Origin: Halorussus pelagicus | GTDB lineage: Archaea > Halobacteriota > Halobacteria > Halobacteriales > Haladaptataceae | Reading direction: 5' to 3' | Assembly (NCBI RefSeq): GCF_004087835.1 | Contig: NZ_CP035119.1 | Location: forward strand, 1,612,001 to 1,676,000 | DNA: 64,000 bases | Part shown: one piece after another, positions 54,647 through 64,000 of the stretch | How the letters are laid out: every line of letters starts with the position of its first letter | Numbering within the stretch: position 1 is the stretch's first letter | Notes under the pieces: model-generated | The model's input: only the letters and a program-made list of their open reading frames with translations | The model's database searches: none | What the model was told of the DNA's origin: nothing | Made by a program: the position numbers and the translations under genes

Positions 54647-54685
54647 ATGACCGACGGGACGACAAAACACGGTGGTGCCCGATGA
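54647..54685 (+). CDS. Possible 12-aa leader ORF coupled to the ABC ATPase
   Basis: ATG 54647 reads MTDGTTKHGGAR and stops in an ATGA overlap with the ATPase start at 54682. The start is where a leaderless transcript from the iron-box promoter would begin. A product is not proven; its value may be translational coupling. Confidence 0.35.
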   Translation: MTDGTTKHGGAR

Positions 54686-55557
54686 CCCCGGAAATCGACT
54701 CGGAAGACCGCGAGACCGGACAACGGGCCGAAAGACAGGTCTTCGACGGCGGGGACTCCGACCGGAAGTCAACCTCGGCGAGCGTGCTCCACGCCGAAGA
54801 CCTCGCACTCGGATATCCGGGTACCGACGAACCCGTCGTAGAGTGCGACCGCATCGACGTGCCCGAGGGAGAGATTACGGCGCTCGTCGGCCCGAACGGG
54901 TCGGGCAAGAGTACGATGCTGAAAGCGCTCTCGAATCACCTCGACCCCGACCGCGGAACGGTCGTCCTCGACGGCCGCGAGATTCACCAGTACGGCGACA
55001 AGGAACTGGCCCGCGAACTCGGCCTGCTCTCTCAGGAGAACGACGCGCCGGGGAGCATCACGGTCGAAGACCTCGTGTATCACGGTCGGTACCCCCATCG
55101 AGAGTTCTTCGACGCGGTAAGCGAGGCAGACCACGAAGCCGTCGAGCGCGCCATCGAACTCGCGGGCGTCGAGGACCTCCGCGACGAGGAGGTCGGTAGC
55201 CTGAGCGGCGGCCAGAAGCAACTCGCGTGGATTGCGATGGTCCTCGCGCAGGACACCGACGTGCTCCTGTTGGACGAACCGACGACGTTCCTCGACCTCC
55301 ACCACCAACTTCGCGTGATGGAGGTCGTCCGGACGCTCAACGAGGAGGAGAACGTCACGGTCGCGGTTGTCCTCCACGACATCGCGCAGGCCGCGCGCTT
55401 CGCCGACAACCTCGTCGCGCTCCACGACGGCGAACCCTACGACTGGGGACCGCCCCGCGAAGTCGTCACCGAGCAACTGCTCGCGGACGTGTTCGAGGTG
55501 GACGCCGCGGTGACGTACACGCCCGACCCCGAAATCGTCCCCAAGCGGTCGCTGTAG
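54682..55557 (+). CDS. Siderophore-type ABC transporter ATP-binding protein (FecE/FhuC-like)
   Basis: The 291-residue protein has an acidic N-terminal extension (1-35) and an ATPase of the siderophore/B12 importer class: Walker A GPNGSGKST (70-78), Q-loop in GLLSQENDAP, signature LSGGQ (174-178), Walker B VLLLDEP (194-200) and VVLHDIAQAARFADNLVALH. It would power import of ferric siderophore with a FecCD-type permease, which is not in the window. Iron control is shown by the palindrome at 54617. It is convergent with the exporter gene. Confidence 0.88.
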   Translation: MTPEIDSEDRETGQRAERQVFDGGDSDRKSTSASVLHAEDLALGYPGTDEPVVECDRIDVPEGEITALVGPNGSGKSTMLKALSNHLDPDRGTVVLDGREIHQYGDKELARELGLLSQENDAPGSITVEDLVYHGRYPHREFFDAVSEADHEAVERAIELAGVEDLRDEEVGSLSGGQKQLAWIAMVLAQDTDVLLLDEPTTFLDLHHQLRVMEVVRTLNEEENVTVAVVLHDIAQAARFADNLVALHDGEPYDWGPPREVVTEQLLADVFEVDAAVTYTPDPEIVPKRSL

Positions 55558-55667: not shown

Positions 55668-57551
55668 CTACGGTCCCGCGAGGTCCGGCGGCGACTCGAC
55701 GTTTCGACCCGCCTGCACCGACCACAGCGTCGCGTACAGTCCGTCCCGTTCGAGGAGCGCGTCGTGGTCGCCTCGCTCGACGATCTCTCCGTCGTCCAAG
55801 ACGAGAATTTCGTCGGCGTCCCTGACCGTCGAGAGGCGGTGTGCGATGACGACGGCCGTCCGGTCGGCGGTGATCTCGTCCAGCGAGCGCTGAATCGAGA
55901 GTTCGGTCTCGGTGTCAACGCTCGCGGTCGCCTCGTCCAGAACCAGAATTTCGGGGTCCTGTAGGATGACTCGGGCGAGCGCGATTCGCTGGCGCTGGCC
56001 GCCTGAGAGTTTGACGCCGCGCTCGCCGACCTGCGTCTCGTACCCGTCCGGGAGACTCTCGATGAACTCGTGGGCTTCGGCGGCGCGGGCAGCGTCCCGG
56101 ACCGCTTGGTCGCTCGCGTCGAACTGCCCGTATCTGATGTTGTCCGCGATGGTGCCGTCGAAGAGGAACGTCTCTTGGCTGACGTAGCCGACGGCGTCTC
56201 TGAGACTGTCGAGGGTCACGTCGCCGACCTCGGACCCGTCAACGCGGACCGCGCCGCCGTCGGCTTCGTAGAGTCGCACGAGGAGTTTCGCGGCGGTCGA
56301 TTTTCCGGACCCGCTCGGACCGACGATGGCGACCTTCTGGCCCGGTTCGACGCCGAACGTCACGTCTCGAAGCACTTGCTCGTCGTCGTACGCGAACGAA
56401 ACGCCGTCGTACTCGATTCGACCGTCCACCGATTCGAGGGCGGTCGCTGACGGCGACTCTCGAACGCCGACCGGAGCGTCCAGTAGGCCGCCGATTCGCG
56501 CGGCCGACGCCTTCGCGTTCTCGTACCAATCGACGATGTTCGAGAGTTGCGCGAGCGGCGTGACGAGTCGCTGGGTGAGCAGGATGAACACCACGAAGTC
56601 GCCCACGGTGAGTTCGCCGCCGAACGGGAACGGCGGACCGGAGAACACCCAGAGACCGCCGACGACGAACGTCACGAACAGGAGCAGTCCGGTCAGGAGT
56701 CGCATCCCCGGCCGGTAGAAGACGCTCAGTCTGATGGCGTCCATCGCGGCGTCGAACAGGTCCTGCGAGACGCGCTCGACTTGCTCGCGCTCGTACTCCT
56801 CGGTCGTGGCCGTCTTGACCAACTGGCTTCCGCTGAGTGCGTTCTCCAGTCTCGTGTTCAGGTTCCCGACTTCGGTCCGCCACGTCGCGTAGCGCGGTTC
56901 GACCGCGCGGACGAACCACCACGTAAACCCGGCCAACAGCGGGACGACGGCGAGGGTGATCGCCGCGAGCTGTCGGTTGAGATACACCAACAGCCCCGTG
57001 ATGCCGAGGACCATCACGCCGATTCTGACGCTCTCCCGGAGCGCGTTGTCGAGGAACAGCTCCAGATTCGTCGTGTCGTTGTTGAGTATCGACATGAGTT
57101 CGCCCGTCTCGGCGTCGTCGAAGAACGACATATCGAGGTCAGTGAGCTTCTCGTAGGCGTCGGTCCGGATGTCGAGCATGACATCGTGGGCGAAGTAGTT
57201 CATGGCGAAGCCCCGCACCCACGCCGACAGCGCCGAGAGGACGAGCGCGCCGCCGACGAGCGTCGCCGAAAGTCGGAACTGGCCGTGGGCGCTCGTCGGG
57301 AGCCACGACTGAGGGACGAGCGGGAGCGCATAGGCCGCCTGCTGGTTGAACACGGCGTCGATGGTCGTCCCGAGGACGAACGGAACGACCAGTGCCGCGC
57401 CGTGCGAGACGACGCTGGCGAGCAACCCGACCGCGAGCCAGCGGGCCTTCGGTCGGCCGTAGCGTACGCAGAGGCGACTCAGCGGCCGCGAGACGTTTGC
57501 CTGCTCGAAATCGAGGGGCGAGCCGTCCTCGTCGCCGTAGTCAGAACTCAT
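55668..57551 (-). CDS. Exporter-type ABC protein (fused membrane and ATPase domains)
   Basis: The 627-residue half-transporter has six helices (about 40-340) and a C-terminal ATPase: Walker [10 protein letters not shown] (near 409-417), Q-loop YVSQETFLFDGTIADNIRYG, signature KLSGGQRQRIALARVIL, Walker B ILVLDEATASVD and an AHRLSTV H-loop. It works as a homodimer of the MsbA/LmrA kind. Its place downstream of the substrate-binding gene in a siderophore locus makes secretion of the made siderophore the most likely role; a drug or lipid substrate cannot be excluded. No separate promoter is evident in the 105-bp gap. Confidence 0.88.
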   Translation of the reverse strand: MSSDYGDEDGSPLDFEQANVSRPLSRLCVRYGRPKARWLAVGLLASVVSHGAALVVPFVLGTTIDAVFNQQAAYALPLVPQSWLPTSAHGQFRLSATLVGGALVLSALSAWVRGFAMNYFAHDVMLDIRTDAYEKLTDLDMSFFDDAETGELMSILNNDTTNLELFLDNALRESVRIGVMVLGITGLLVYLNRQLAAITLAVVPLLAGFTWWFVRAVEPRYATWRTEVGNLNTRLENALSGSQLVKTATTEEYEREQVERVSQDLFDAAMDAIRLSVFYRPGMRLLTGLLLFVTFVVGGLWVFSGPPFPFGGELTVGDFVVFILLTQRLVTPLAQLSNIVDWYENAKASAARIGGLLDAPVGVRESPSATALESVDGRIEYDGVSFAYDDEQVLRDVTFGVEPGQKVAIVGPSGSGKSTAAKLLVRLYEADGGAVRVDGSEVGDVTLDSLRDAVGYVSQETFLFDGTIADNIRYGQFDASDQAVRDAARAAEAHEFIESLPDGYETQVGERGVKLSGGQRQRIALARVILQDPEILVLDEATASVDTETELSIQRSLDEITADRTAVVIAHRLSTVRDADEILVLDDGEIVERGDHDALLERDGLYATLWSVQAGRNVESPPDLAGP

Positions 57552-57656: not shown

Positions 57657-58871
57657 TTAGATGTCGCCGTTGACGATGTCGGCGACGCGCTGGCGGTCGA
57701 ACAACTCGTTGTCTCCCGTCACCGCGCCGAACTCGTCGGGGTAGAGTTGCTTGGCCGCGCGCTCGGTCAGGAAGAGGTTGTGAATCGGTCCCTGACGGAG
57801 GTAGCCGCCGCGGTAGACCCGGCCGTTCTGGACGGCCGTTAGCTCCTTGCCGACGGGGTGGTCCTCCATGTAGCCGAGGACGGTATCGCGGAATTCCGAG
57901 GCGGATTTGCCCTCGTGGCCCCGAATCAACAGCACGTCCGGGTCGATTTCGAGCAGGTTCTCGTAGTCGAGTTCGCTCCGGTTTTCCGTGCTAAGATTCT
58001 CGATGCCGGTACCCGACAGCGCGTCAGCGACGCCGAGGTCCCGCCACTGTTTCTTGCTCGTGCCCTTGTCGGTGAGCCGATACGGCGAGAACGATTCGGG
58101 TTCGTCGGTGCCCTCGTAGGTGAGGAACACGCTCGGGCGCTCGTCCGCTGGCGGCATCCGGGACTGAATCTTCCCGACGAACTCCTCGTGAAGCCGCTCG
58201 AACGCCTCGTAGCGCTCTCGCTCCTGAAACAGTTCGGCCATCTTCTCGAACGCCTGATAGAGCGTGTAGAACCGGTAGTCGTGCCAACTGTCGGACCGCC
58301 GGAAAATCATGTTTCCGAGGAACGGCCCGACCTTGCCGCTGATTTCCTCGATGTCGGACTGGCTCCAGTCGAACCAGTTTCTCAGCATCCCGGTGTCGAT
58401 GACGTGAACGTCGCTGTCCATCTCGTAGAACAGCTCTTTCGACATGTCCGACTCGACCAAATCGTTCGACGCGATGCGCTCGTCGTCAACGCTCACGCCG
58501 GGCAACTCGTCGTACACGTCGGTGTAGTATTCGCCGGACTGTCCGATGCCGGTCATCCCGTCGGCCTGCCCCAGCGCGACGCCCATGTCGGCGTAGTCTC
58601 CGCCGTAGGGAACCCACGTCTCCGGAACCGACTCGAACGTCACGGCTCCGGTCGGTGCCATCGACACGGAGTAACTGGTGTCCTCGGTCGTCGTCTCCGG
58701 TTCGGTCGTCGTCTGCGTCGCGGTCGTCTCGCTCGCACCGGTCGTGGTGGACTCGTCCTCAGAGTCTGTCGTGCCGCTACAGCCCGCGAGCAGCCCGCTC
58801 CCGACGAGAGCGCCGTACGTCAGGTACTGTCGTCGCGTCGATACGTGTTTTCCGTCTCTTTCTCGGGACAT
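57657..58871 (-). CDS. Siderophore/iron ABC substrate-binding lipoprotein (BtuF/FepB-like)
   Basis: The 404-residue protein has a Tat signal (TRRQYLTYGALVGSGLLAGC, lipidated C31), a Thr/Glu-rich stalk (about 32-65) and a two-lobed periplasmic-binding fold of class III with TWVPYGGDYADMGVALGQAD, a long connecting helix and DPDVLLIRGHEGKSASEFRD. It captures ferric siderophore outside the membrane. The iron-box at 58875-58892 sits right against its start codon, so transcription is probably iron-repressed and leaderless. It is followed by the exporter gene after 105 bp. Confidence 0.87.
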   Translation of the reverse strand: MSRERDGKHVSTRRQYLTYGALVGSGLLAGCSGTTDSEDESTTTGASETTATQTTTEPETTTEDTSYSVSMAPTGAVTFESVPETWVPYGGDYADMGVALGQADGMTGIGQSGEYYTDVYDELPGVSVDDERIASNDLVESDMSKELFYEMDSDVHVIDTGMLRNWFDWSQSDIEEISGKVGPFLGNMIFRRSDSWHDYRFYTLYQAFEKMAELFQERERYEAFERLHEEFVGKIQSRMPPADERPSVFLTYEGTDEPESFSPYRLTDKGTSKKQWRDLGVADALSGTGIENLSTENRSELDYENLLEIDPDVLLIRGHEGKSASEFRDTVLGYMEDHPVGKELTAVQNGRVYRGGYLRQGPIHNLFLTERAAKQLYPDEFGAVTGDNELFDRQRVADIVNGDI

Positions 58872-58960: not shown

Positions 58961-60811
58961 TCACTCCTCGCCGACTTCGTGGAGCGGGTTGGCAATCGAG
59001 CCGTGGCTCCGGACTTTCGGTCGCGTGCTGGTGTCGTCGTAGCCGTAATCGACCATCCGGTTGCGGTTGAGACAGTAGTTGGTGAACCGCGGCTTGAACA
59101 GGTCGAACAGCTCGAAGCGCTCGGACAGTTCCGGGAACCGGTCGTGGTACGACTCGACGGCCGACCGGACCTGCCGCCAGAACCGCGTCTCGTCGTAGCC
59201 GTGGTGGCGCGCCAGCAGGTCGGCGACGTACCGGAAGACGCCGACGAACAGCGTGCCGACGATGCGGACCGCGAGGGCGGGCGGCGGACTCCGGTGGAGG
59301 ATGTGGTGTTTGTACCGGTCGTCGTCGCGCAGGTCCGTCGGGAGGTGTTCGAGCAGTTCGGGGAAGTCCCGGTCCACGATGCCCACCTCGTCCACGAAGT
59401 CCTTGATGGCGACCCGCACCGGCAGTCCGTCCTCGTGGACGAGGACGACGTTCGTGCCGTGGGGCATGAACACCACGCCGTACTTGTAGAGGTAGTGGAG
59501 AATCGGTTCGAGCAGGACCGACAGCAGTTCGTCGAGCCACGCCTCCAGCGACAGGCCCGAGCGCTCCACGAGTTTCGAGACGACCGGCGTCCCGTCGAAG
59601 TCCTCGTGGTAGAGCGCCGCGAGCGTCAGCGGTTCGCCCGACGGGAGGAGCGACGTGACGCTCTCGCGCCAGACGCAGGCCAGCAGTTCGTGGTACTGAT
59701 ACGGCGCGTTCTCTAACTGGCTGAGTTTCGGATGCTCGTAGTTGACGCTGGCGACCTCGCCGGGGAGCAACACCCCGAGGTCGTCGCGCAGGAACGCGTC
59801 GTCGTCTCGAACCGATTTGACGAACTCGGTCACGCCCGGCGCGGCCTCGGCCTGCTCGCCCAAGATGCCCCGGTAGACGTTCGTGTTCAACACCCGTATC
59901 GGCAGTTTTACGTGGTGTTTGTCCGAGTTCGTGACGTTCGAGAAGGTCCGTATCGACTGCTGTGGGAGGTAGTCGTCCGATGCGGTTCCGAGCGGAACGA
60001 GCGCGTCCGTGGCGATGTCCTCGGCGAACAGTTGGACGATGCTGTCGTTCCACTGCCAGTCGTGAACCGGCAGGAGGTGGTAGTTCGCCGGGTCGAGTCC
60101 GTCGTCGGCGAGTCGGTCCTGGAACCGGTCGTAGTCGTCGCCGAGTTCCGCCCGGAGGAACCGCTCGCGGTCGAGTCCGCCGACCGACGAGAACACCGCC
60201 CTGTCCTTGCGCGCCGCGACCCACGACAACTGTTGGGATTGCTTGGACTCGGGAGCGTACTGGCGGTAGTCCTCGTAGTCGAACCCGACCCGGCCCTTGT
60301 TGTAGGTGTACCACGGGTGGCCCTCCATCTCCCCCTCGATGCTCGCGTAGGGGAGCGAGAGAAGCGATTCGTCGGTTCGCTCGGTCTTTCGGGCGCGGAT
60401 GTGGGCGTTCGCGACGAGCGTGTTGTCGAACTCTCGGACGAGGTGGGCGGCGGTCGATTCGGCGACCCCGATGTACTCGCGGGCGTCGAGCAGGAACTGA
60501 ACCGGGTCGGTGGCGCGACGCCAGTCCCCGCGGTTCTCGCGGCGATGTATCGACTCGCGCCGAACTCGATAACTGTCGAGGGGCCGCGATTGGGCGTCGA
60601 ACCGATACTCCACCTCGTCGCTCAATCGGAGGTGATAGCGGTTCCACCTGTCGTCGGGTTCGTCGTCGTCGGCCGGGACGGTATCGATCTTTGCGGGGAC
60701 GAGTACGTCCTCGAACATGAACTCCGCGAACACTTTCTGGAGGAGGTCTTTCTGCACGTCCGTCCAGATTTCCTCGCGGAGCGCGTCCGTAACTCCATCA
60801 ACGCGGTCCAT
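58961..60811 (-). CDS. NIS siderophore synthetase, IucA/IucC family (first)
   Basis: The 616-residue enzyme couples carboxylic acids with amines or alcohols using ATP to build non-peptide (NIS) siderophores. Family signs: GHPWYTYNKGRVGFDYEDYR and YAPESKQSQQ, VHDWQWNDS, SIRTFSNVTNSDKHHVKLPI and LNTNVYRGI, HELLACVWRESVTSLLPSGE, FMPHGTNVVLVHEDGLPVRV and IKDFVDEVG, and a C-terminal ANPL. I chose ATG 60811 because a GGAGG lies 6 nt ahead and because the 60844 start would prepend a run of seven Arg. A 25-residue leader ORF ends 1 nt before it. The gene runs towards the binding-protein gene, which has its own promoter. Confidence 0.88.
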   Translation of the reverse strand: MDRVDGVTDALREEIWTDVQKDLLQKVFAEFMFEDVLVPAKIDTVPADDDEPDDRWNRYHLRLSDEVEYRFDAQSRPLDSYRVRRESIHRRENRGDWRRATDPVQFLLDAREYIGVAESTAAHLVREFDNTLVANAHIRARKTERTDESLLSLPYASIEGEMEGHPWYTYNKGRVGFDYEDYRQYAPESKQSQQLSWVAARKDRAVFSSVGGLDRERFLRAELGDDYDRFQDRLADDGLDPANYHLLPVHDWQWNDSIVQLFAEDIATDALVPLGTASDDYLPQQSIRTFSNVTNSDKHHVKLPIRVLNTNVYRGILGEQAEAAPGVTEFVKSVRDDDAFLRDDLGVLLPGEVASVNYEHPKLSQLENAPYQYHELLACVWRESVTSLLPSGEPLTLAALYHEDFDGTPVVSKLVERSGLSLEAWLDELLSVLLEPILHYLYKYGVVFMPHGTNVVLVHEDGLPVRVAIKDFVDEVGIVDRDFPELLEHLPTDLRDDDRYKHHILHRSPPPALAVRIVGTLFVGVFRYVADLLARHHGYDETRFWRQVRSAVESYHDRFPELSERFELFDLFKPRFTNYCLNRNRMVDYGYDDTSTRPKVRSHGSIANPLHEVGEE

Positions 60812-60812
60812 G

Positions 60813-60890
60813 CTACGCCTCCGGCGACGCCGACGATTGTCCATGCGGTCCGATTCGGCACCACTCGCGGTGTTGCGATTGCCCTGCCAT
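60813..60890 (-). CDS. Possible 25-aa leader ORF before the first NIS synthetase
   Basis: ATG 60890 lies 27 nt after a TATATA element and just after an iron-box palindrome, i.e. where a leaderless mRNA would begin. It encodes MAGQSQHREWCRIGPHG and eight more residues, and its TAG ends 1 nt before the synthetase ATG, with the synthetase Shine-Dalgarno inside the last codons. Function unproven; a coupling role is inferred. Confidence 0.35.
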   Translation of the reverse strand: MAGQSQHREWCRIGPHGQSSASPEA

Positions 60891-61129: not shown

Positions 61130-61225
61130 ATGCGTGCCACTGTAGACGACCGGCGGGGTTCGCCCGCGCTCGGAGGACCGACCGCGAGAGACAACCGCTC
61201 GACGGCGGAGGTGACCGCCGAATGA
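61130..61225 (+). CDS. Possible 31-aa leader ORF overlapping the second NIS synthetase
   Basis: ATG 61130 starts MRATVDDRRGSPALGGPTAR and ends in TGA within an ATGA overlap at the synthetase start. It begins 9 nt after the last iron box, near the expected transcript start. Third-position GC is about 74%. A functional peptide is not established. Confidence 0.35.
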   Translation: MRATVDDRRGSPALGGPTARDNRSTAEVTAE

Positions 61226-63039
61226 CGACCGTGGGCGAATACTGCGAGACGCCCGCCGAACACGCCGAGTCGGCGACGCTCCACGCTGTTTTGAACTGTT
61301 ACCTGCGCGAGACCGACGCCGGAACGTACGAAGCGACCGCACCGTCCGGTATCGACGCGCCGGACGGTGTCGTCCGACTCGAACTTCCCGAACAGGACGC
61401 GACGGTGGTCGCCCCGCTCCGGTACCGGTCGGCGACCGGACGCCACCTCTTCGAACTTCCCGCGTACACCCTCGACGGGGAGTCGCCGACCTCGCTCGAC
61501 GCCGGGACGCTCGCGGCGCTCGTGCGCCGCGAACTCGCGCTTGGAACGCCGGGCGCGGACCTGACGGAGGGGACCGACCTGCTCCGGCGGGTCTTCGCGT
61601 CCCGTCGGGCCACCGAGCGGTTCGTCCGGGACCGCGAGTGGGACATTCCCGCCGACCTCGCACCCGAGTTCATCGAGACCGAGCAGTCGCTGGTCTACGG
61701 CCACCAGATGCACCCGACGCCCAAGAGCCGCGAGGGAGTCGCCGACCACGAGGTGCCGACCTACGCTCCCGAACTCGGCGGCGAGTTCCGCCTGCGGTAC
61801 TTCGCCGCGGACCCGGCCGTCGTCACCGACCTGTCGGCGCGTCCGGAGAGCGCCGCCGAGTGGGTCGCGTCCGCGCTCCGCGAGAGTGACGCCGACCTGC
61901 CGCCGGAGGCCGCCGACGCGCTCAACGCGGGTCGGGTCCTCGTCCCGACCCACCCGTGGCAGGCCGACTACCTCGCCGCCGAACCGCACGTCGAGGCGGC
62001 GCTGAAGTCCGGTCGCCTCGACGACCTCGGGCAGTTCGGGCCGACGTTCTACCCGACTTCCTCGGTTCGGACGCTCTGGAGTCCGGACGCGCCCTTCATG
62101 GTCAAGGGGTCGCTCGCGGTCCAGATTACCAACTCCGAGCGCACGACCAAGCGGGCGGAACTCCGTCAGGGCGTCCTCGCCTCCCGCCTCGTGGACGCCG
62201 AGTTCGGCGACCTGCTGGCCGAGCGGTTCCCGCGGTTCACCATCGTGGAGGACCCGGCGGCGCTCGCGCTCGACATCGGGGAGGATTCCGAGTCCGGGTT
62301 CGAGACGGTCCTGCGCGAGAACCCCTTCCGCGGCGCGGACGCCGAGCGAGTCGCGCCCGTCGCGGCGCTCTGTCAGGACCGACCGGACGGTCCCTCCCTG
62401 CTCGCGCGCGTCGTCCGGCGACTCGCCGCCGACGAGGGCCGACCGGAAGAAGAGGCGGCCCGCGAGTGGTTCCGGAAGTATCTCGCGGTGACACTCCGCC
62501 CGACGCTCTGGTCGTACTTCGAACTCGGCGTCGGGTTCGAGGCCCACCAGCAGAACACGCTGGTCGAACTCGACAGCGACGGCTGGCCGACTGCGGGCTA
62601 CTACCGGGACAACGAGGGGTTCTACTTCCCCGAGTCGAGATACGACCGAGTCGAGGAGTGGGTCCCCGGACTCCGCGAGCAGGTCGATATGGTCTGTGCC
62701 GACGACGTGGCCGACGAGTGTATTCGGTACTACACCGTCGTCAACAACGCCTTCGGCGTTGTGAACGCCCTCGGCGTCGCGGGACTCACCGACGAGACGG
62801 CGCTCCTCGAAGACCTCCGGGCGGAACTGTCGTCGCTCGCGGAGTACGAACCGCCCGAGTCGTCGCTCGTCTCGGCGCTCCTCGAACGCCGTCGGATTCC
62901 CTGCAAGGCGAACCTCCTCACCCGGTTCGAGGGCCGCGACGAGTTGGCCTTCGACCTCGAAAACGAGTCGGTCTACGTCGATATCGACAACCCGCTCGTG
63001 ACGCGACTCGACGCGGCCAGCGGGAGGGAGGACCGATGA
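61222..63039 (+). CDS. NIS siderophore synthetase, IucA/IucC family (second)
   Basis: The 605-residue enzyme has the family blocks YGHQMHPTPKSREGV and TYAPELGGEFRLRYF, LVPTHPWQADYL, SSVRTLWSPDAPFMVKGSLA with VQITNSERTTKRAELRQG, FELGVGFEAHQQNTLVELDS and the C-terminal ANLLTRF and VDIDNPL. ATG 61222 is preferred over 61123 because a GGAGGTGA Shine-Dalgarno lies 7 nt ahead and because the extra 33 residues are Arg/Cys/His-rich and non-conserved. It is divergent from the first synthetase across an iron-controlled region and overlaps the RraA-like gene by ATGA. The product and acyl/amine substrates are not predictable. Confidence 0.9.
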   Translation: MTTVGEYCETPAEHAESATLHAVLNCYLRETDAGTYEATAPSGIDAPDGVVRLELPEQDATVVAPLRYRSATGRHLFELPAYTLDGESPTSLDAGTLAALVRRELALGTPGADLTEGTDLLRRVFASRRATERFVRDREWDIPADLAPEFIETEQSLVYGHQMHPTPKSREGVADHEVPTYAPELGGEFRLRYFAADPAVVTDLSARPESAAEWVASALRESDADLPPEAADALNAGRVLVPTHPWQADYLAAEPHVEAALKSGRLDDLGQFGPTFYPTSSVRTLWSPDAPFMVKGSLAVQITNSERTTKRAELRQGVLASRLVDAEFGDLLAERFPRFTIVEDPAALALDIGEDSESGFETVLRENPFRGADAERVAPVAALCQDRPDGPSLLARVVRRLAADEGRPEEEAAREWFRKYLAVTLRPTLWSYFELGVGFEAHQQNTLVELDSDGWPTAGYYRDNEGFYFPESRYDRVEEWVPGLREQVDMVCADDVADECIRYYTVVNNAFGVVNALGVAGLTDETALLEDLRAELSSLAEYEPPESSLVSALLERRRIPCKANLLTRFEGRDELAFDLENESVYVDIDNPLVTRLDAASGREDR

Positions 63040-63707
63040 TTGGCGACATCGACCGCCCCGACGACGAGCAGTTGCGCGCCCTAGAGCGAGTTGACCCGAA
63101 CGAACTCGGCCATCACAAACACTTCGGCCACTCCTCGCCGGAGATTCAGTTCATGGGCACCGCTCCGTCGGGTGAACTGGTCGGAACGGCGGTGACCGTC
63201 AGGATTCCGCCGGTCGATGGGACGATGGTACACAAAGCAATCGAACTGGCCGGGCCGACCGATGTTCTCGTCATCGAGATGGGCGGCCACGAGACGAACG
63301 CACCGTGGGGTGCGGTCACGACCCACGCGGCCGTCGCTAACGGCGCGAGAGGCGTCGTCATCGACGGTGCCGTGACCGACACCGCCGAGATAACCGAGGT
63401 CGGGTTCCCCGTCTTCGCGCGGGCGCGGACCAACAGAACGGTCCAGCGCCTGAGCGAGAGTTTGGGCGGCGACGTTAACGTCCCGGTGCAGGTCGGCGGC
63501 GCGGTGGTCCGGCCGGGAGATGTCGCCATCGGCAACGACGACGGAGTGGTGTTCGTCCCGCGCGAAGAAATCGACGAGACCGTCGGGCGCTACGCGCGGG
63601 GCGACGGTGCGGAAGCCGAACTCATCGAGCGCCTGTACGACGGCGAGTCGCTGGCGGACATCTCAGGCGCGAACGACCGAATCGCCGAACTGGAAGACGG
63701 ACGCTGA
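63036..63707 (+). CDS. RraA/HMG-aldolase family protein in the siderophore operon
   Basis: The 223-residue protein belongs to the RraA/demethylmenaquinone methyltransferase-like fold used by class II 4-hydroxy-4-methyl-2-oxoglutarate aldolases and oxaloacetate decarboxylases: FGHSSPEIQFMGTAPSGELV, VDGTMVHKAIELAGPTDVLV, VIEMGGHETNAPWGAVTTHA, then GARGVVIDGAVTDTAEITEV. In the canonical motif the two residues after DGAV are Arg-Asp; here they are Thr-Asp, so the catalytic Arg is replaced. The gene overlaps the synthetase as ATGA and is probably co-translated, so a role in supplying or modifying a siderophore building block is plausible. Regulation of RNase E cannot apply, as archaea lack the standard target. 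Confidence 0.8.
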   Translation: MIGDIDRPDDEQLRALERVDPNELGHHKHFGHSSPEIQFMGTAPSGELVGTAVTVRIPPVDGTMVHKAIELAGPTDVLVIEMGGHETNAPWGAVTTHAAVANGARGVVIDGAVTDTAEITEVGFPVFARARTNRTVQRLSESLGGDVNVPVQVGGAVVRPGDVAIGNDDGVVFVPREEIDETVGRYARGDGAEAELIERLYDGESLADISGANDRIAELEDGR

Positions 63708-63775: not shown

Positions 63776-64000
63776 TCACCGAGCGCCGTCGGTCGCCAGC
63801 GGATTCTGCACCGTCGTCCGTCGGTAGTTGTCTTCGTCGCGGAACCACGTCTCGGTCATCGACATGTGTCCGATTCGGTCGGCGAACAGCGACTCGCGGT
63901 CCGACCGAACGCGCGACTCGGGCACGCTGTCGTCCGCGGCGAGTCGCTCGAAGACGCGCTCGCACCGCTCGCGGACCAGCGACCAGCAGTCCCCTGCGGC
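63776..64000 (-). CDS. Probable third NIS siderophore synthetase, C-terminal end only
   Basis: The last 74 residues of a protein enter from the right edge on the minus strand and end with a TGA at 63776-63778. They include CWSLVRERCERVFERLAADD and, at the end, ETWFRDEDNYRRTTVQNPLA. IucA/IucC proteins close with a methionine/arginine-bearing strand followed by an NPL motif, as in both full synthetases nearby, so I infer a third family member. The evidence is one short end, and an unrelated protein cannot be excluded. It converges on the RraA-like gene. Confidence 0.45.
   Translation of the reverse strand, partial: AAGDCWSLVRERCERVFERLAADDSVPESRVRSDRESLFADRIGHMSMTETWFRDEDNYRRTTVQNPLATDGAR

Follow-up and report, generated by a model that had tools for sequence, protein, structure and literature searches.

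In the staphyloferrin B cluster, citrate is made by SbnG, a synthase of the HpcH/HpaI family. For the Pseudomonas aldolase, which belongs to the same fold as the protein described here, it was reported that R123A abolishes activity and that kcat drops 181-fold with R123K and 1114-fold with N71A (PMC5065237). In Acinetobacter baumannii, the NIS cluster for baumannoferrin lists the gene bfnG as 'RraA family protein' (PMC10483418), so that NIS clusters with an RraA-like gene have already been annotated. This annotation was the sole find of literature searches on RraA in siderophore or nitrilase operons, and the acinetoferrin cluster on an Acinetobacter plasmid contains no RraA-like gene. Among haloarchaea, schizokinen was proposed as the product for Haloferax volcanii (PMC7407949), and glutamate-putrescine ligase activity was demonstrated for GlnA-2 of Haloferax mediterranei (PMC8394153).

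The locus described here is located on a haloarchaeal chromosome (C1:1612001-1676000). This whole stretch of 64,000 nucleotides was analyzed and is referred to as the window. Near its end, an RraA-like gene is found between NIS synthetase genes (Table 1).

The RraA-like gene and its siderophore cluster

PF03737 (RraA-like) is the sole Pfam family in the encoded protein (E 8.5e-36; 123.9 bits versus a cut-off of 24.5). The ATG start codon at 63036 is supported because relatives begin with M(V)IGDxDRP, and the haloarchaeal orthologs start at the same place. The TGA stop codon of NIS synthetase 2 (63037-63039) leads to an overlap of four nucleotides, so that the RraA-fold gene overlapping a synthetase by ATGA, as given in the preliminary description, could be verified for the window. 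The coupling to the synthetase that was assumed from it is not conserved, since the overlap is present in the window alone; conserved translational coupling was ruled out because the Haloarcula orthologs are convergent with synthetase 2. Between NIS-linked orthologs, dN/dS ranges from 0.05 to 0.25, and the gene is therefore under purifying selection. A sequencing or decay artefact was ruled out as well, as the Thr-Asp motif described below is invariant in its branch and dN/dS is well below 1. The gene is a real, conserved member of the RraA/aldolase family.

Table 1. Features of the RraA-like gene, its cluster and related loci; positions refer to the window unless a locus is named.
Feature	Position	Strand	Remarks
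RraA-like protein, Thr-Asp subfamily	63036..63707	+	Feature under study; 223 aa; TGA stop ends at 63707
ATGA overlap, RraA-like start / NIS synthetase 2 stop	63036..63039	+	Not kept in relatives
His26 codon	63111..63113	+	Aligned to E36 of 3NOJ; invariant in Thr-Asp subfamily; most Arg-Asp paralogs have Asp/Glu
Gly62 codon	63219..63221	+	N71 of 3NOJ; Gly or Ser across Thr-Asp subfamily; Asn in most Arg-Asp paralogs
Ala93 codon	63312..63314	+	D102 of 3NOJ; Ala in window protein and G106; Glu in most haloarchaeal relatives
Thr114-Asp115 codons	63375..63380	+	R123-D124 of 3NOJ
Glu193 codon	63612..63614	+	E199 of 3NOJ, metal ligand
FecE/FepC-like ABC ATPase	54682..55557	+	Profile matches
MsbA-like ABC exporter, possible siderophore exporter	55668..57551	-	Profile matches
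FecB-type ferric-siderophore binding protein (Peripla_BP_2)	57657..58871	-	Pfam
NIS synthetase 1, SbnF-like, divergent	58961..60844	-	Domain/profile matches
NIS synthetase 2, IucA/IucC and FhuF-like domains	61222..63039	+	PF04183 and PF06276; start picked at MTTVGEYC by inspection
NIS synthetase 3, C-terminal end	63776..64000	-	Convergent with RraA-like gene; runs past window (L034:777-2945)
Gamma-glutamylputrescine-synthetase-type ligase (glutamine-synthetase family)	L034:5906-7342, past window end		NF045547, 728 bits versus cut-off 650
CE4/PuuE-allantoinase-like hydrolase copies	L038:10609-11448, L039:8695-9537, L040:10385-11245		

The gene that overlaps the RraA-like gene encodes an NIS synthetase, since both of its Pfam domains are present (Table 1). 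Beyond the window end follow an RhbB-like diaminobutyrate decarboxylase, a diaminobutyrate transaminase, the gamma-glutamylputrescine-synthetase-type ligase (GS-type gene) and a MATE exporter. A genome-wide search of the window genome resulted in no match to the Lys/Orn N-monooxygenase PF13434 and none to the IucB-type acetyltransferase PF13523, for which reason a hydroxamate product such as schizokinen is unlikely. The product of the cluster is probably a hydroxamate-free archaeal siderophore, for which we infer a carboxylate type with 1,3-diaminopropane as its backbone unit and perhaps a gamma-glutamyl group.

The same gene set, likewise without PF13434, could be found in the genomes G106, G184 and G169. 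In another genome of the window genus, which lacks an RraA-like gene, there is a single weak NIS match and part of a GS-like gene (G373:C1:1765472-1766350; residues 163-447, 89% identity); the fragment is perhaps the remnant of a lost copy of the window cluster. A few kb downstream of the window cluster, genes of the ornithine cyclodeaminase/mu-crystallin family (L034:9097-10071) and of the creatininase family (L034:10635-11372) are located. Both types also adjoin bacterial Thr-Asp RraA genes, which is possibly a coincidence.

Active site and extent of the Thr-Asp subfamily

The closest solved structure is 3NOJ (E 4.8e-27), and no Thr-Asp protein is present among the aligned solved structures of relatives. 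Codon 114 (63375-63377) is ACC and encodes Thr, which is followed by Asp115; both residues align to R123-D124 of 3NOJ with no gap between the two. The motif thus reads DGAV-Thr-Asp versus Arg-Asp in the aldolases, in agreement with the replacement of Arg by Thr that had been noted before.

The metal-site acids D124 and E199 of 3NOJ are retained as Asp115 and Glu193. Across the Thr-Asp subfamily, D124 is retained throughout, and the E199 equivalent is kept in the haloarchaeal members and missing in several bacterial ones. Judging from the residues at the D102 position (Table 1), the second acidic residue is variable within the NIS-linked clade. According to the alignment, R123 and N71 are replaced across the whole branch, where the E36 and N71 positions switch together with R123. 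Due to the loss of R123 and N71, a pyruvate-enolate, oxaloacetate or citrate-making chemistry is unlikely. The subfamily has invariant residues of its own, namely G25-H26, T114 and T135. At K147 of 3NOJ, the corresponding loop of the window protein contains a two-residue insertion, with Arg or Lys close by. An AlphaFold2 model with three sequences as input reached a mean pLDDT of 46, a quality that does not allow the position of His26 or Thr114 relative to the metal to be judged. The window protein is below the cut-offs of the HMG/CHA aldolase equivalogs TIGR02798 (106.6 versus 304.5 bits) and NF006731 (115.3 versus 179 bits), as well as below that of the RNase E regulator RraA equivalog TIGR02998 (28.8 versus 241 bits).

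Thr-Asp was found in every haloarchaeal homolog with at least 48% identity and in 10 of 10 proteobacterial relatives, a small plasmid-derived sample selected for its similarity to a Thr-Asp query, and Arg-Asp in all 57 more distant haloarchaeal RraA-like paralogs checked, where some of the scored loci come from the same genome. In a maximum-likelihood tree of 60 proteins, a single branch (support 100/97) separates every Thr-Asp row from the rest, corresponding to one change. The NIS-linked copies, apart from that of G100, form their own clade of seven rows therein (support 100/100). The window protein lies on the Thr-Asp side and has T114-D115, G25-H26 and Gly at position 62, where the subfamily has Gly or Ser. 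By sequence, the Thr-Asp proteins are an unnamed subfamily of the RraA/class II aldolase fold that occurs in bacteria and archaea. No function is assigned to this branch and no activity is described for it in the sources found, and the usual annotation of its genes is '4-hydroxy-4-methyl-2-oxoglutarate aldolase' or 'dimethylmenaquinone methyltransferase' although they lack the aldolase-critical residues.

Linkage to NIS synthetases and neighbours elsewhere

Among 391 genomes of the class, NIS synthetases were found in 112 and a match to the window protein in 92, of which 13 contain one with at least about 49% identity. Eight of these 13 are NIS genomes with the RraA-like gene in a siderophore locus, and in seven the distance to NIS genes is at most 10 kb. 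These counts take no account of kinship between the genomes. The G076 copy is accompanied by a FecB-type gene, two GS-like genes and a MATE exporter, with the NIS genes on another contig. The arrangement varies: the gene overlaps synthetase 2 downstream in the window, is convergent with synthetase 2 in three Haloarcula-type genomes, adjoins synthetase 1 in G144 and G207, and is located directly behind a gamma-glutamylputrescine synthetase in Haloprofundus halobius. This repeated co-location in differing arrangements argues for a functional tie. The survey that the preliminary description had proposed supports its link between the RraA-like gene and NIS genes.

By coordinate comparison, a GS-type gene is located within 10 kb of NIS genes in 20 of the 112 NIS genomes (including G298, G053, G087, G057, G084, G115, G083, G360, G337, G202, G113, G210 and G341). 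All seven NIS-adjacent RraA copies fall in these 20 genomes (nesting p 2e-6, assuming independent genomes, which they are not). With about 20 haloarchaeal genomes, the GS-type gene near NIS synthetases is much commoner than the RraA-like gene, and a role of it in siderophore synthesis seems to be undescribed. A Halocatena marina plasmid (L115) carries a lone SbnF-like NIS synthetase, a gamma-glutamylputrescine synthetase and an MFS gene, with no second synthetase or diamine genes nearby.

Most NIS genomes do not contain a Thr-Asp RraA-like gene. Six genomes (G083, G084, G115, G341, G053 and G087) have a cluster of NIS and GS-like genes, yet zero PF03737 genes genome-wide; G083 and G087 even carry a third synthetase. 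The complete schizokinen-type cluster of Halostagnicola larsenii contains glnA2 and no RraA-like gene. In the other 17 genomes of the window genus the gene is absent except for one non-NIS copy with 56% identity. As comparable clusters exist without PF03737, the RraA-like gene is an optional addition, and, given the six genomes, the expectation that the siderophore depends on it is not supported.

The other 5 of the 13 genomes and three Haladaptatus plasmids carry the gene in non-NIS loci. The haloarchaeal loci of this kind combine it with an ABC ATPase, a carbon-nitrogen hydrolase in divergent orientation, a regulator of the TrmB type and a sugar-type ABC transporter; the locus of Natrialba magadii also contains an agmatinase-family gene. 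The next gene downstream in Halorientalis marina encodes a gamma-glutamylputrescine synthetase, and the 10 kb around this copy contain no NIS gene. A CE4/PuuE-allantoinase-like hydrolase adjoins the Thr-Asp RraA gene near a MATE exporter in G076, G144 and G207. Bacterial neighbours are a carbon-nitrogen hydrolase (Paraburkholderia, Shinella, Comamonas, Aminobacter and Variovorax), a creatininase with an N-formylglutamate amidohydrolase (Qingshengfaniella and Agrobacterium), or a Zn-dependent hydrolase with an ornithine cyclodeaminase (Sulfitobacter and Agrobacterium); Bosea is the exception among the bacterial loci read. An Arg-to-Thr change specific for siderophore loci was ruled out, because both haloarchaea and proteobacteria have members of the same branch, with the same Thr, next to carbon-nitrogen hydrolases in loci without NIS genes.

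Putative role and comparison with described systems

The best reading is that the RraA-like protein would be an accessory, dispensable enzyme of amide or diamine handling and not a carboxylate supplier. Concerning catalysis, substrate class and pathway role, we infer the following. With the metal-binding Asp kept (in haloarchaea also the Glu of the neighbouring site) and the pyruvate-holding and -polarising R123 and N71 replaced, the Thr-Asp protein is most likely metal-dependent and may cleave or rearrange an amide- or amine-bearing small molecule, working alongside an enzyme for the formation or breakage of amide C-N bonds. Its place in the window genome would result from recruitment into a hydroxamate-free NIS cluster in which a transaminase and a decarboxylase make 1,3-diaminopropane and which contains a gamma-glutamylputrescine-type ligase. 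There, it could plausibly process or clear a gamma-glutamyl- or citryl-diamine intermediate or by-product. The C-N bond enzymes next to Thr-Asp members in haloarchaea and bacteria suggest such a role. Since the neighbours depend on the lineage and sugar-type ABC transporters are among them, the substrate class can only be guessed, and a point against this explanation is that a comparable cluster presumably works without the gene in G083, G084, G115 and others. As a whole, the explanation of a Thr-Asp metal-dependent enzyme acting on amide or amine small molecules and recruited to a diaminopropane NIS cluster is put forward tentatively, with somewhat less than even confidence.

Defining the branch by its sequence and its C-N hydrolase and ligase neighbours leads to a concrete substrate set. 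Furthermore, the cluster points to a hydroxamate-free archaeal siderophore using a gamma-glutamyl-diamine ligase, which is not described in the literature found. That the branch is an enzyme family with a chemistry new to the RraA/aldolase fold (e.g., C-N cleavage in a gamma-glutamyl or carbinol-amide substrate), tailoring or recycling a hydroxamate-free archaeal siderophore of diaminopropane and gamma-glutamyl-diamine, would be a much bolder claim and is decidedly unlikely.

Two rival explanations of equal standing are also unlikely. Together with an amide hydrolase, the protein could degrade imported or spent siderophore or amide fragments, free the iron and recover the diamine. The G076 locus, where a FecB-type binding protein, two GS-like ligases, an exporter and the CE4/PuuE-like hydrolase surround the gene away from the NIS genes, is consistent with such a turnover, as are the uptake and hydrolase operons in which the subfamily occurs elsewhere, but a hydrolase is not adjacent in the window or the Haloarcula clusters. 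The gene could also be a passenger, carried by horizontal transfer into NIS islands or their vicinity, with a function in an unrelated nitrogen metabolism. Its several gene orders in few genomes, its near absence from the window genus and the common unlinked copies point in this direction, whereas the separate clade of seven NIS-linked rows (G100 apart), the purifying selection and the nesting in GS-positive NIS clusters argue against it.

A supply of the synthetase with a carboxylate building block (citrate, a 2-oxo or a hydroxy acid) in the manner of SbnG, as considered in the preliminary description, is very unlikely. The NIS linkage in seven genomes, the fold of class II pyruvate aldolases and the retained metal-site residues D115 and E193 would fit, but the whole subfamily has lost both R123 and N71, without which pyruvate chemistry does not proceed, the scores are far below the aldolase equivalog cut-offs, the same subfamily with its Thr occurs in operons without NIS genes, and equivalent NIS clusters do without the gene. 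Moreover, SbnG is an analogy only, an aldolase-type gene in an NIS cluster, while the window protein has PF03737 as its sole family, has no HpcH/HpaI domain and lacks the catalytic residues for such a chemistry. A role without catalysis, in binding or regulation as for E. coli RraA, which has the same fold and binds and modulates the RNA degradosome (PMC5065237), would agree with the lost catalytic residues but is highly improbable given the invariant metal-ligand Asp, the invariant His26 and Thr114 at active-site-aligned positions and the low RraA equivalog score.

Compared with 3NOJ (Pseudomonas putida F1 HMG/CHA aldolase/oxaloacetate decarboxylase; LigK/PcmE), the window protein shares the fold, the family, a similar length and the equivalents of D124 and E199, whereas R123 is changed to Thr, N71 to Gly (Gly or Ser in the subfamily), D102 to Ala and E36 to His. 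The proteobacterial 'RraA family proteins' (from Aminobacter, Shinella, Variovorax, Comamonas and Paraburkholderia plasmids) have the same Thr-Asp, the N-terminal G-H and the same tree branch, but only 32-40% identity, and they are encoded in uptake and hydrolase operons with no NIS genes nearby. BfnG is a parallel at the annotation level, as an RraA-family gene inside an NIS cluster (PMC10483418), and the papers found assign no function to it. The schizokinen cluster of H. volcanii (HVO_B0041-B0046) also contains NIS synthetases and the diaminobutyrate transaminase and decarboxylase, but its six genes include neither an RraA-like nor a GS-like gene (PMC7407949), whereas the window genome lacks the N-monooxygenase and the IucB acetyltransferase. 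Finally, the GS-like gene of the window cluster passes the cut-off of the equivalog of H. mediterranei GlnA-2 (NF045547); GlnA-2 belongs to putrescine catabolism (PMC8394153), whereas the gene of the window cluster is part of an iron-siderophore locus.
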